A DNA stretch of 64,000 bases, from the NCBI RefSeq assembly GCF_000189415.1, contig NC_015144.1:1350001-1414000 (forward strand). The letters run 5' to 3'. Origin of the DNA: Weeksella virosa DSM 16922 (GTDB lineage: Bacteria > Bacteroidota > Bacteroidia > Flavobacteriales > Weeksellaceae). Shown in pieces: positions 45,831-49,229 of the stretch. The number at the start of each line of letters is the position of its first letter. The stretch's first letter is position 1. A program made the translations under genes and the position numbers. Under the pieces are notes generated by a model, which saw only the letters and a program-made list of their open reading frames with translations, did not search any database and had not been told where the DNA came from.

Positions 45831-46283
45831 TTAAATCTTGTTTTTAGAATCTATAAAAATAGTGACCGGTCCATCGTTCAACAGTTCAACTTTCATATCG
45901 GCACCGAAAACACCGGTTTTCAAGGGTTTAGAAAAGTTCGCTTGCATAATTTCTAAGAATTTTTCGTACTGTTGTTTCGCCAATTCTGGTTTCGACGCAA
46001 GAATGTAAGATGGTCGATTTCCTTTCTTGGTCGAGGCATGTAGCGTAAACTGACTCACGATGAGCAATTCTCCATCTACCTGTTCTACATCCCAATTCAT
46101 GATGTTGTTTTCATCGGTGAAAACTCTGAGTTGTTTTATTTTTTTGGCCATCCAGCCAAAATCCTCATCAGTATCTTCTGCTTCAAATCCTACCAAAACC
46201 AAAAGTCCTTTCTTTATCTGCCCGGTAACTTTTCCTTCTACGCGGACTTCTGCATGGGTAACTCGTTGTAAAATAATACGCAT
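45831..46283 (-). CDS. dtd: D-aminoacyl-tRNA deacylase
   Basis: Dtd removes D-amino acids (and glycine) mischarged on tRNAs. The 150-aa length is canonical. The two active-site motifs are present: SQFTLHA near residue 78 and NDGPVT near the C-terminus. MRIILQRVTHAEVRVEG is the typical start. It lies three bases after rsgA and is probably the last gene of the aroG/pheA-rsgA-dtd operon. Confidence 0.96.
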   Translation of the reverse strand: MRIILQRVTHAEVRVEGKVTGQIKKGLLVLVGFEAEDTDEDFGWMAKKIKQLRVFTDENNIMNWDVEQVDGELLIVSQFTLHASTKKGNRPSYILASKPELAKQQYEKFLEIMQANFSKPLKTGVFGADMKVELLNDGPVTIFIDSKNKI

Positions 46284-46286
46284 GGT

Positions 46287-47204
46287 TTATTCTGTGTAAA
46301 TATCGTCTTGCAAGAAAGTTAAGTAATTTTCGTAACGCGATTTAGCGATTTCACCTTTTTCTACAGCTTCTCGCACGCCGCATTTCGGTTCGTTAACATG
46401 GATACAATTGTCGAATTTGCAATCATCACGGAATTTATAGAATTCAGGGAAATAGTTCTGGAGCTCTTGCTTTTCGAAATGTACCAAACCAAACTCTTTG
46501 ATGCCTGGCGTATCGATAATGAAACCACCAAAAGGCCATGGATACATTTGGGCAAAAGTTGTAGTGTGTTGTCCTTTGCTATTGAAATCAGAAACTTGGT
46601 GCGTTTTCAGGTCCAAGGTTGGGTCTAAAGTGTTGAGCAAAGTCGATTTTCCCACCCCCGAGTGTCCAGAAACCATACTTACAGAGTCTTTCATTCGGTT
46701 TTTCACTTCTTCTAAACCAACCTCAGTTTCGGCAGAAATAGAAAAGCTCTCGTAACCAATTGGTTGATAAATAGATTTGTATCGTTCTAATTCTTGTAAA
46801 TCTTCCTCAGTATATGCATCAATTTTGTTGAATAATAAAATAACGGGAATGTGGTAAGCTTCAGCCGTGACAAGGAATCGATCGATAAAGCCCAGCGAAG
46901 TTTTGGGATTGCTTAGCGTGATCATTAAAAAAGCCAAATCGATATTAGAGGCAATGATATGTGTTTTTTTTGATAGGTTTACCGATTTCCGAATGATGTA
47001 ATTTTTGCGTTCATGTATATGTGTAATTACCGCAATTTCGTCTTTATCAACTTCAAAATCAACTTCATCACCCACAGCAATGGGATTGGTATGTTTGATA
47101 TTTGCAATTCTAAATTTACCTCGCATTCGGGCTAGATATTCTTTGCCTTCTTCTGTAAGAAGATGGTACCAACTCCCTGTAGATTTCGTAACAATTCCCT
47201 TCAA
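46287..47204 (-). CDS. rsgA: Ribosome small subunit-dependent GTPase A
   Basis: RsgA is a circularly permuted GTPase that helps late 30S maturation. The permutation is visible: an N-terminal OB domain, then G4 NKID (126-129), then the P-loop GHSGVGKST (180-188), then G3 DTPG (231-234). A C-terminal zinc finger follows with Cys262, Cys267, His269 and Cys275. The 305-aa length is normal. It follows aroG/pheA by one base, so ribosome assembly would be co-transcribed with aromatic amino acid synthesis and subject to the same leader. Confidence 0.97.
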   Translation of the reverse strand: MKGIVTKSTGSWYHLLTEEGKEYLARMRGKFRIANIKHTNPIAVGDEVDFEVDKDEIAVITHIHERKNYIIRKSVNLSKKTHIIASNIDLAFLMITLSNPKTSLGFIDRFLVTAEAYHIPVILLFNKIDAYTEEDLQELERYKSIYQPIGYESFSISAETEVGLEEVKNRMKDSVSMVSGHSGVGKSTLLNTLDPTLDLKTHQVSDFNSKGQHTTTFAQMYPWPFGGFIIDTPGIKEFGLVHFEKQELQNYFPEFYKFRDDCKFDNCIHVNEPKCGVREAVEKGEIAKSRYENYLTFLQDDIYTE

Positions 47205-47205
47205 A

Positions 47206-48282
47206 TTATTTTATGTTTTTTTTGGTCATTATTTTGTTTTGATTCGTAACGGATTCTTGATGAATCGCTTGAAATAATTTATCTACAAAATCATCGGATA
47301 AGCCAAGATTAGAGGCGTGTTTCAATGAGTTTTGTTTGATTTGTGTCCATCGGTCGGGCTGAAAAACTGCAACATTGTGTTCTTTTTTTAGTTCACCAAT
47401 TGCCAAGGCAACTTTCATGCGTTGAGCAACAGTGTCGAGAATAATATTATCTAACTCGTCTATCTGATGACGTAAATTGGCAATATTGTTTTTGTAAATC
47501 GCATCAGGATCATCGGATTGTCTAACTTCTAATTGCTGTAAGATTTCTAACAAACGAGCCGGTGTAATTTGCTGCGCCGCATCCGACCATGCTTCATCTG
47601 GATTATTGTGTGTCTCGATCATCAAACCATCGTACTCAAAATTGTAAGCTTGTTGGGCAACGTCAAACAACCCTGTTCGATTACCGCAAATATGCGACGG
47701 ATCACAAAGTATAGGAATGTTAGGCAGTTGGTTTTTAAAATCCAAAGCAATTTGCCATTGAGGATTATTACGATATTTTGTTTTCTTATAGGTAGAAAAA
47801 CCACGATGAATAGCCCCTAGATTTTTGATGTTTTGTGCTTCGAGTCTTTCCAAAGCTCCAATCCATAAATCCAGATCAGGATTGACGGGGTTTTTCACCA
47901 AAACTATTTTGTCTGTACCTTGCAAAGCCTCGGCAATTTCTTGTACCGTAAACGGATTTACGGTAGATCGGGCGCCAATCCAAAGGATATCTACATCATA
48001 TTCTAATGCTAATTTGGCATGATTGGCATTGGCAATCTCTGTTGCAATCATCATCCCAAATTCATTTTTCACTTTCTTCAACCAGTTCAATCCGATCGCG
48101 CCTATTCCTTCGAAGCTATTGGGCTTGGTTCTAGGTTTCCATATTCCTGCGCGAAAGACTTGTGTGTATTCTTTTGGGAGTTGCTCGGCAATACTCAACA
48201 TTTGTTCTTCACTTTCGGCACTGCATGGGCCAGCGATTATCAAAGGTTTATCGAATTTTTGTATCCAGTTGCTGTTGTTCAT
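47206..48282 (-). CDS. Bifunctional DAHP synthase / chorismate mutase
   Basis: This 358-aa fusion joins the first shikimate-pathway enzyme to chorismate mutase. Residues 1-260 form a class I-beta DAHP synthase (PLIIAGPCSAESEEQML, VFRAGIWKPRTKPNSFEG, LWIGARSTVNPFTVQ, VLVKNPVNPDLDLW, LCDPSHICGNR). Residues about 275-358 form an AroQ-type helical chorismate mutase (LRHQIDELDNIILDTVAQRMKVALAIGELKKEHN). It therefore commits flux to all aromatics and then diverts chorismate to prephenate. A leader peptide and terminator lie directly upstream, and rsgA and dtd follow. Confidence 0.96.
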   Translation of the reverse strand: MNNSNWIQKFDKPLIIAGPCSAESEEQMLSIAEQLPKEYTQVFRAGIWKPRTKPNSFEGIGAIGLNWLKKVKNEFGMMIATEIANANHAKLALEYDVDILWIGARSTVNPFTVQEIAEALQGTDKIVLVKNPVNPDLDLWIGALERLEAQNIKNLGAIHRGFSTYKKTKYRNNPQWQIALDFKNQLPNIPILCDPSHICGNRTGLFDVAQQAYNFEYDGLMIETHNNPDEAWSDAAQQITPARLLEILQQLEVRQSDDPDAIYKNNIANLRHQIDELDNIILDTVAQRMKVALAIGELKKEHNVAVFQPDRWTQIKQNSLKHASNLGLSDDFVDKLFQAIHQESVTNQNKIMTKKNIK

Positions 48283-48321
48283 AACATTACAAATTTAAGG
48301 TTTTCTGAGGTCATAGGCTAA

Positions 48322-48351
48322 AAAAAGTCCCACAGAAGTGTGGGACTTTTT
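48322..48351 (-). terminator. Attenuator terminator (segments 3:4) upstream of DAHP synthase
   Basis: On the minus strand AAAAAGTCCCACA pairs perfectly with TGTGGGACTTTTT around the loop CTTC, followed by further T. It ends 39 bases before the DAHP synthase ATG. No complete gene lies upstream that it could terminate other than the 26-codon leader, so it must act within the leader transcript. Confidence 0.88.
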
Positions 48352-48379
48352 ATCATTGTTAAAATTATTATTTCATAAC

Positions 48380-48460
48380 TTATCTGCACACTCTTTCCAC
48401 TTCTTTTGGTTTTGACCAAAAAAAGCATAAAAAGTAGTTTGGGATTAAAGTTATCTTCAT
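48380..48460 (-). CDS. Aromatic amino acid leader peptide (26 aa)
   Basis: ATG at 48460 opens a 26-codon ORF ending in TAA at 48380. Residues 9-15 read YFLCFFW, so five of seven codons specify Tyr, Phe or Trp; the rest is Lys/Glu/Arg/Val-rich. It lies between a TAGCTTTG box and a strong terminator, in front of DAHP synthase/chorismate mutase. Codons 12-15 can form an 11-bp helix (48425-48415 with 48410-48400). The 3' arm of that helix can instead pair with the terminator (48404-48398 with 48340-48334). This is the layout of a classical ribosome-mediated attenuator. It is too short for routine gene callers. Confidence 0.82.
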   Translation of the reverse strand: MKITLIPNYFLCFFWSKPKEVERVCR

Positions 48461-48481
48461 TATTCTTTATTTAGATACGAA

Positions 48482-48489
48482 CAAAGCTA
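48482..48489 (-). promoter_or_regulatory. -7 box of the aromatic leader transcript
   Basis: TAGCTTTG on the minus strand matches TAnnTTTG and lies 21 nt before the leader-peptide ATG. No clear -33 element is visible in the AT-rich upstream DNA. Confidence 0.55.
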
Positions 48490-48533: not shown

Positions 48534-49229
48534 ATGGGTATAGAAATAAAGGCTTTAACCAAAAAATATCAAGAACAACTAGCGCTAAATCAAGTTTCTT
48601 TTAAGATAGATTTGGGTGAAGTGGTTGGGTTATTAGGACCAAATGGAGCGGGGAAATCAACATTGATGAAGTGTGTTACCAGTGCTATTTTACCAACTAG
48701 CGGTGATGTTTTGGTAGATTCTTATTCGGTTGTAGAGCAACCCGAAAAAACGAAGAAACGAATAGGTTTTTTACAAGAAAACAATCCGTTGTATCCAGAA
48801 TTGTATGTCCAAGAATATCTGCAATTTGTGGCTAATATTCACTCTGCTACAAAAAGTCGTGTGCAAGAAGTGATAGAACTTGTTGGGTTAACGGCAGAAA
48901 AAAAGAAAAAAATTAATCAACTTTCTAAAGGTTATAAACAAAGAGTTGGTTTGGCTCAAGCAATTTTAGGCGACCCAGAAATTTTGATTCTTGATGAGCC
49001 TACCAATGGCTTGGATCCTAATCAGATAATAGAGATTCGCGAGTTGATTCGTTCTTTAGGAACGCATAAGACAGTGATTCTTTCTACGCATATTATGCAA
49101 GAAGTAGAAGCATTATGCACGCGTGTGTTGCTCTTGAATAAAGGAAAGATTATTGCCGATCAGCCGATAGAAGAGTTTAAAGGACAATATAAAAACTTGG
49201 AAGAGGCTTTTCAGGTACTTACAAAATAA
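48534..49229 (+). CDS. GldA-like ABC transporter ATP-binding protein
   Basis: This 231-aa ATPase has Walker A GPNGAGKS near residue 34, signature LSKGYKQRVGLAQAI, Walker B ILILDEPTNGLDPNQIIEIRELI and LSTHIMQEVEALC. The sequence closely resembles GldA, the ATPase of the GldAFG gliding ABC complex. However, GldA is usually about 300 aa, and this protein stops about 70 residues earlier, right after AFQVLTK. No gldF/gldG lies nearby. It may be a shortened GldA or another exporter ATPase of the same subfamily. Confidence 0.75.
   Translation: MGIEIKALTKKYQEQLALNQVSFKIDLGEVVGLLGPNGAGKSTLMKCVTSAILPTSGDVLVDSYSVVEQPEKTKKRIGFLQENNPLYPELYVQEYLQFVANIHSATKSRVQEVIELVGLTAEKKKKINQLSKGYKQRVGLAQAILGDPEILILDEPTNGLDPNQIIEIRELIRSLGTHKTVILSTHIMQEVEALCTRVLLLNKGKIIADQPIEEFKGQYKNLEEAFQVLTK

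Follow-up and report, generated by a model that had tools for sequence, protein, structure and literature searches.

A pheA-type leader-peptide attenuator, probably stranded and weakened, in front of the DAHP synthase/chorismate mutase gene of Weeksella virosa

The gene for a bifunctional DAHP synthase/chorismate mutase (aroG/CM) in Weeksella virosa is preceded by a short ORF with clustered aromatic codons and by an intrinsic terminator, which raises the question of whether this arrangement is an attenuator made for the gene or one that came from another operon. The genome is a single contig of 2,272,954 bp (size published in PMC3072086), and the window analysed here is a stretch of 64,000 nucleotides from it. 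The gene product matched the NCBIfam models of DAHP synthase (residues 12-252) and chorismate mutase (residues 268-346), below the equivalog cut-offs; the genome holds one ortholog, with the gene start at 48282. The genes for RsgA and a D-aminoacyl-tRNA deacylase then follow on the same strand (45831-47204, minus strand).

Upstream of aroG/CM, the initial annotation had described a promoter box, a 26-codon ORF with Tyr-Phe-x-x-Phe-Phe-Trp at codons 9-15, and a perfect 13-bp terminator with a T tract, and we found all of them on the minus strand at the positions it gave (Table 1). Codons 9-15 read Y9, F10, L11, C12, F13, F14 and W15, and codon counts from the sequence showed the clustering characteristic of leader-peptide attenuators. 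The terminator hairpin with its T run (48326-48320; fold -17.9 kcal/mol) sits between the leader ORF and the structural gene, and its string occurs as a single copy in the genome, even when 3 mismatches are allowed. The proposed 1:2 helix was likewise confirmed, as were two candidate antiterminators: a perfect 7-bp 2:3 pairing of AGAAGUG with CACUUCU (48340-48334), and an alternative pairing of AGAGUGUG with 48342-48334 around one bulged U. A second -7 box, which the annotation had missed, lies between the terminator and the gene.

Table 1. Features in front of aroG/CM in W. virosa and the flanking genes (positions in the window)
Feature	Position	Strand	Description	Basis or remark
aroG/CM	47206..48282	-	bifunctional DAHP synthase/AroQ-type chorismate mutase, 358 aa	NCBIfam
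11-codon ORF MTSENLKFVML	48279..48314	-	ATG at 48314-48312, probably left over from the pheA start codon	comparison with W. massiliensis upstream sequence; may be coincidence
Proximal -7 box TAAATTTG	48290..48297	-	past the terminator, 7 nt upstream of the start codon of aroG/CM	candidate bypass promoter
Intrinsic terminator, segments 3:4	48322..48351	-	48351-48339 with 48334-48322, 13 bp perfect, 4-nt loop CUUC	
Leader ORF MKITLIPNYFLCFFWSKPKEVERVCR*, start to stop codon	48380..48460	-	26 codons, 5 aromatic	homologues in W. massiliensis and Flavobacteriales/Bacteroidia relatives
Segment 2	48387..48404	-	AGAAGUG 48404-48398 and alternative AGAGUGUG 48394-48387	
1:2 hairpin	48400..48425	-	48425-48415 with 48410-48400, 11 bp, one U-G, loop CAAA	sequence and fold
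Distal -7 promoter box TAGCTTTG	48482..48489	-	putative promoter of the leader transcript; Bacteroidetes consensus TAnnTTTG; predicted start about 48477	sequence
gldA-like ABC ATPase gene	48534..49229	+	divergent neighbour	reference point for synteny with the relatives' pheA leaders

To trace the origin of the element, we compared the locus with those of relatives. The W. massiliensis locus runs from divergent gldA through leader and terminator to pheA (prephenate dehydratase), an aminotransferase gene and aroG/CM; its leader is MNISLFTSYFFYFFWTNPKEVGRLCR, its terminator is AAAAAGTCCCACAGAAATGTGGGACTTTTTTTTT, and its distal box is likewise TAGCTTTG. The leader ORFs of the two species are identical at 64 of 81 nucleotides, versus 332 of 556 at the 4-fold sites of four neighbouring genes, a measure that pools both branches and can neither tell which of them is constrained nor date a relaxation. 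The terminator region is identical at 28 of 32 nucleotides, and the differences make up the loop. The same leader was found ahead of pheA in Empedobacter, Algoriella, Chishuiella, Faecalibacter-type and Moheibacter-type genomes, and pheA is present without it in the other Weeksellaceae genera examined.

A covariance model (R1) gave 19 matches at 64-143 bits in 246 genomes of the family, after which scores dropped to 47 bits or less; matches in the family under about 50 bits were rejected as leaders, being mostly plain terminators. R1 and a second model (R2) gave further matches in other families of the order and the class. The W. virosa element, which is among the sequences that built both models, scored 97.6 bits with R1 and 81.2 bits with R2. 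Searching with W. massiliensis proteins by tblastn, we found that 43 of 44 loci have pheA as the next gene downstream, W. virosa being the sole exception, and many of the 44 carry gldA upstream. No such leader stood directly in front of aroG/CM in the upstream regions searched from 33 named relatives. Judged by homology and synteny, the region descends from a leader-peptide attenuator, that of the Bacteroidia pheA operon; the W. virosa element is homologous to the others by its position beside gldA, but it is a pheA leader no longer. The earlier proposal of an attenuator built for the fused DAHP synthase/chorismate mutase conflicts with this: in relatives the leader heads pheA, and W. virosa has lost pheA and the aminotransferase gene.

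To see how the ancestral element is built, we folded the 19 Weeksellaceae leaders and found that the aromatic codons pair with segment 2, which, once they are masked, is free for the 5' arm of the terminator. The 18 leaders besides that of W. virosa each fold a counterpart of the 1:2 hairpin, linking segment 2 with the aromatic codons. The pairs between segment 2 and the arm covary across families (GGGAC:GUCCC, GGGAU:AUCCC, CGAGAC:GUCUCG and GUGGGA:UCCCAC). Compensatory changes in the 2:3 pairing turn G-C into A-U in 3 distinct sequences and C-G into U-A at two further pairs, and the 3:4 terminator stem carries compensatory changes in relatives as well; pairs were counted by script on extracted segments, since MAFFT misaligned the terminators of several rows. 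The 2:3 pairing of each leader with its own arm averaged -11.8 kcal/mol, versus -10.0 kcal/mol with swapped arms; 0 of 20000 permutations reached the mean of the own pairings, in a comparison that still contains shared ancestry. For 58 of 63 leaders, segment 2 complemented the arm of the same leader more closely than shuffled segment-2 regions did (p<0.05). The aromatic-rich leaders and the compensatory 2:3 and 3:4 changes that the initial annotation had suggested seeking in Weeksellaceae are present in relatives, upstream of pheA. Its attenuator logic holds for the 1:2, 2:3 and 3:4 anatomy of the relatives; the 2:3 helix that it drew, however, uses the terminator loop and is not in the ancestral register.

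Ribosome-mediated attenuation of the ancestral element on Phe and Tyr is well supported by these sequence comparisons, with the stalling step taken by analogy from trp and phe systems. In relatives, a ribosome stalled on the FFYFF run for charged Phe- or Tyr-tRNA would cover segment 1, and the freed segment 2 (GGGAC-type) would bind the GUCCC-type 5' terminator arm. Transcription would then continue into pheA and, in loci with the corresponding gene order, through the aminotransferase gene and aroG/CM. Without stalling, either the 1:2 hairpin or a ribosome sitting at the stop codon would allow the terminator to form.

The element would work like attenuators of the pheL and trpL type and is in this sense of a known kind; what sets it apart is what became of it in W. 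virosa. At the gathering threshold, Rfam gave nothing in the 64,000-nt window. The gammaproteobacterial Phe_leader (RF01859) shares with it a Phe-rich leader peptide, alternative hairpins, a terminator and a place upstream of prephenate dehydratase; its scores of 25.3 bits in W. virosa (terminator area only) and 34.3 bits in the best relative are below the gathering cut-off of 55, and we found no evidence of common descent. The trp operon leader (RF00513) has the general ribosome-stalling logic in common, whereas the leaders here hold 0-1 Trp codons; it reached 24.1 bits in one relative, under its cut-off of 41, and had no match in the window.

In Flavobacterium psychrophilum, a structured 5' cis-regulatory element upstream of pheA, kept in other Flavobacteriaceae genera and without an Rfam match, has been reported, along with strong hints of leader-peptide attenuation ahead of operons for amino-acid biosynthesis (PMC9723704). 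The Flavobacteriales leaders found here precede pheA as that element does, and gene and lineage suggest that the two are the same; W. virosa differs from F. psychrophilum in that the downstream gene is aroG/CM. In a 2010 survey, leader peptides were known only from Proteobacteria and Actinobacteria (PMC2965389). The present comparison documents a Phe/Tyr leader-peptide attenuator before pheA, with no Rfam family, across several Bacteroidia families, and the compensatory changes open the antiterminator model to testing in bacteria whose translation mostly starts without Shine-Dalgarno sequences.

How the leader came to stand before aroG/CM can be read from the junction. By single family searches, the W. 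virosa genome has no match to PDT (PF00800) or PDH_N (PF02153), whereas all 14 control genomes match both; the ortholog of the W. massiliensis aminotransferase was not found either (best match 24% identical), and chorismate synthase is present. From the absent families we infer that Phe and Tyr synthesis has been lost. The chorismate mutase domain of aroG/CM is conserved (84 of 95 residues identical to W. massiliensis) despite the lack of a prephenate dehydratase or dehydrogenase family match in the genome. Downstream of the terminator, the sequence ...TTTTTTTAGCCTATGACCTCAGAAAACCTTAAATTTGTAATGTTATG is similar on its left side to the pheA start of W. massiliensis, TTTTTTTTTGTACTATG, and on its right side to the aroG upstream sequence of that species, CAGAAAGCCTTAAATTTGTAATGTTATG. 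This junction is most simply read as a single deletion whose ends lie near the pheA start codon and shortly upstream of the aroG -7 box. The TGA of the 11-codon ORF overlaps the aroG ATG (ATGA), which could couple their translation and may be due to chance. In the third genome of the genus (G028), pheA and the leader are both gone, and the TAAATTTG box before aroG/CM is kept (L066 11312-11526).

Immediately ahead of aroG/CM, the proximal box is shared by the sister Weeksella, by Empedobacter-type genera and by Moheibacter-type genomes, some of which have no pheA upstream; loci L024-L034 lack it. The box fits the TAnnTTTG consensus, which is taken with its -12 to -5 position from PMC9723704, and it would yield a nearly leaderless mRNA; this class accounts for about 5.5% of the mRNAs mapped in F. 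psychrophilum (PMC9723704). Because the box lies past the terminator, it would, if active, bypass it. Most aroG/CM transcription probably starts at this candidate promoter.

The switch itself has changed in W. virosa. The ancestral core, GUGGGA:UCCCAC in the sister species, is broken, with GUGGAA at 48400-48395, and the pairing of segment 2 with the terminator arm is the weakest of the 63 (-6.5 kcal/mol, p 0.32 versus shuffles), reaching -10.1 kcal/mol (p 0.11 versus shuffles) when the terminator loop is allowed to pair. Codons 6, 11 and 12 encode I, L and C; since the sister species and the outgroups keep aromatic residues there, these changes are derived losses in W. virosa. Among the 36 leaders tabulated, the W. 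virosa leader has 5 aromatic codons (Phe, Tyr or Trp) versus 8-11 in the 35 others.

We consider it probable that a stranded and weakened pheA attenuator stands before aroG/CM, pheA and the aminotransferase gene having been deleted, and that the proximal box is the main aroG/CM promoter. The deletion brought the attenuator directly before aroG/CM, and the loss of three aromatic codons and the breakage of the antiterminator core have probably weakened it since. The homology, the synteny, the deletion, the erosion and the second box can be read from the sequence itself, whereas the stalling mechanism and the activity of the two promoters are inferred. The persistence of the terminator, the promoter box and the Y-F..F-F-W codons counts against such wear, as does the alternative antiterminator that W. 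virosa regains through the terminator loop, by which the switch may have been re-made rather than lost. W. virosa offers in this respect a natural experiment on an operon losing its first genes, in which the terminator stays while the regulatory codons and the antiterminator wear down.

A less likely reading, though one with appreciable weight, is that the element is dead, giving a short transcript without regulatory effect, and that the proximal box alone drives aroG/CM. The eroded codons and segment 2 agree with it, as do the conservation of that box and the state of G028, the other genome of the genus without pheA, which has the box alone; the leader ORF and the terminator, however, are well conserved relative to 4-fold sites, with both branches pooled.

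The opposite reading, a fully working attenuator re-purposed in an organism without Phe and Tyr branches, in which a shortage of Phe or Tyr (perhaps Trp) raises DAHP synthase via AGAAGUG:CACUUCU, appears unlikely. It can draw on the kept 13-bp terminator, on Y9, F10, F13, F14 and W15, and on the energy of the alternative antiterminator (-10.1 kcal/mol), for which loop randomisation placed the CUUC loop among the best 8-10 of 256 possible loops. It has to contend with the lowest aromatic codon count and the weakest ancestral pairing of the leaders compared, with a -7 box that lies beyond the terminator, and with the missing PDT and PDH families, so that extra DAHP is not expected to give Phe or Tyr. 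The originally drawn 2:3 helix is possible in W. virosa but is not the ancestral switch, and the sequence gives slight support for selection on it. A further version, which we regard as doubtful, is that the attenuator outlived its pathway: the pheA leader would be kept, the antiterminator re-made in a new register (loop CUUC with AGAAG), and a shortage of scavenged aromatics would now gate entry into chorismate synthesis, with no recognisable Phe/Tyr branch enzymes. If the switch still works, it would show the re-wiring of an attenuator by gene deletion.

The amino acids sampled bear on the initial view of a dedicated attenuator that evolved for the fused enzyme and senses Tyr, Phe and Trp jointly. 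Codons for all three do occur together in the W. virosa leader; Phe codons in the relatives' leaders, however, are about twice as frequent as Tyr codons, and each of the 36 tabulated leaders has 0-1 Trp codons, so the common signal, as read from the codons, is Phe plus Tyr. This view is contradicted by synteny, the element preceding pheA in all but one of the 44 loci and the relatives' aroG/CM having no such leader directly in front, and we hold it to be very improbable. A chance ORF beside an ordinary terminator is practically out of the question: AT-rich intergenic DNA readily gives short ORFs rich in Phe, Tyr and Lys, but the compensatory changes across families refute this explanation, as does the occurrence of homologues of leader, ORF and terminator next to gldA in W. 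massiliensis and in numerous further genera.

Two further observations concern relatives. A terminator-like hairpin, AAAATCCCCACAAAGGGATTTTTT, precedes pheA in locus L123 (genome G007) with no obvious aromatic leader and is possibly another eroded attenuator. In some class-level relatives (L244-L246, L248, L251-L254), pheA is followed by aroG/CM within the fetched stretch with no aminotransferase match, and the leader carries a longer GCCGGGAC:GUCCCGGC antiterminator.
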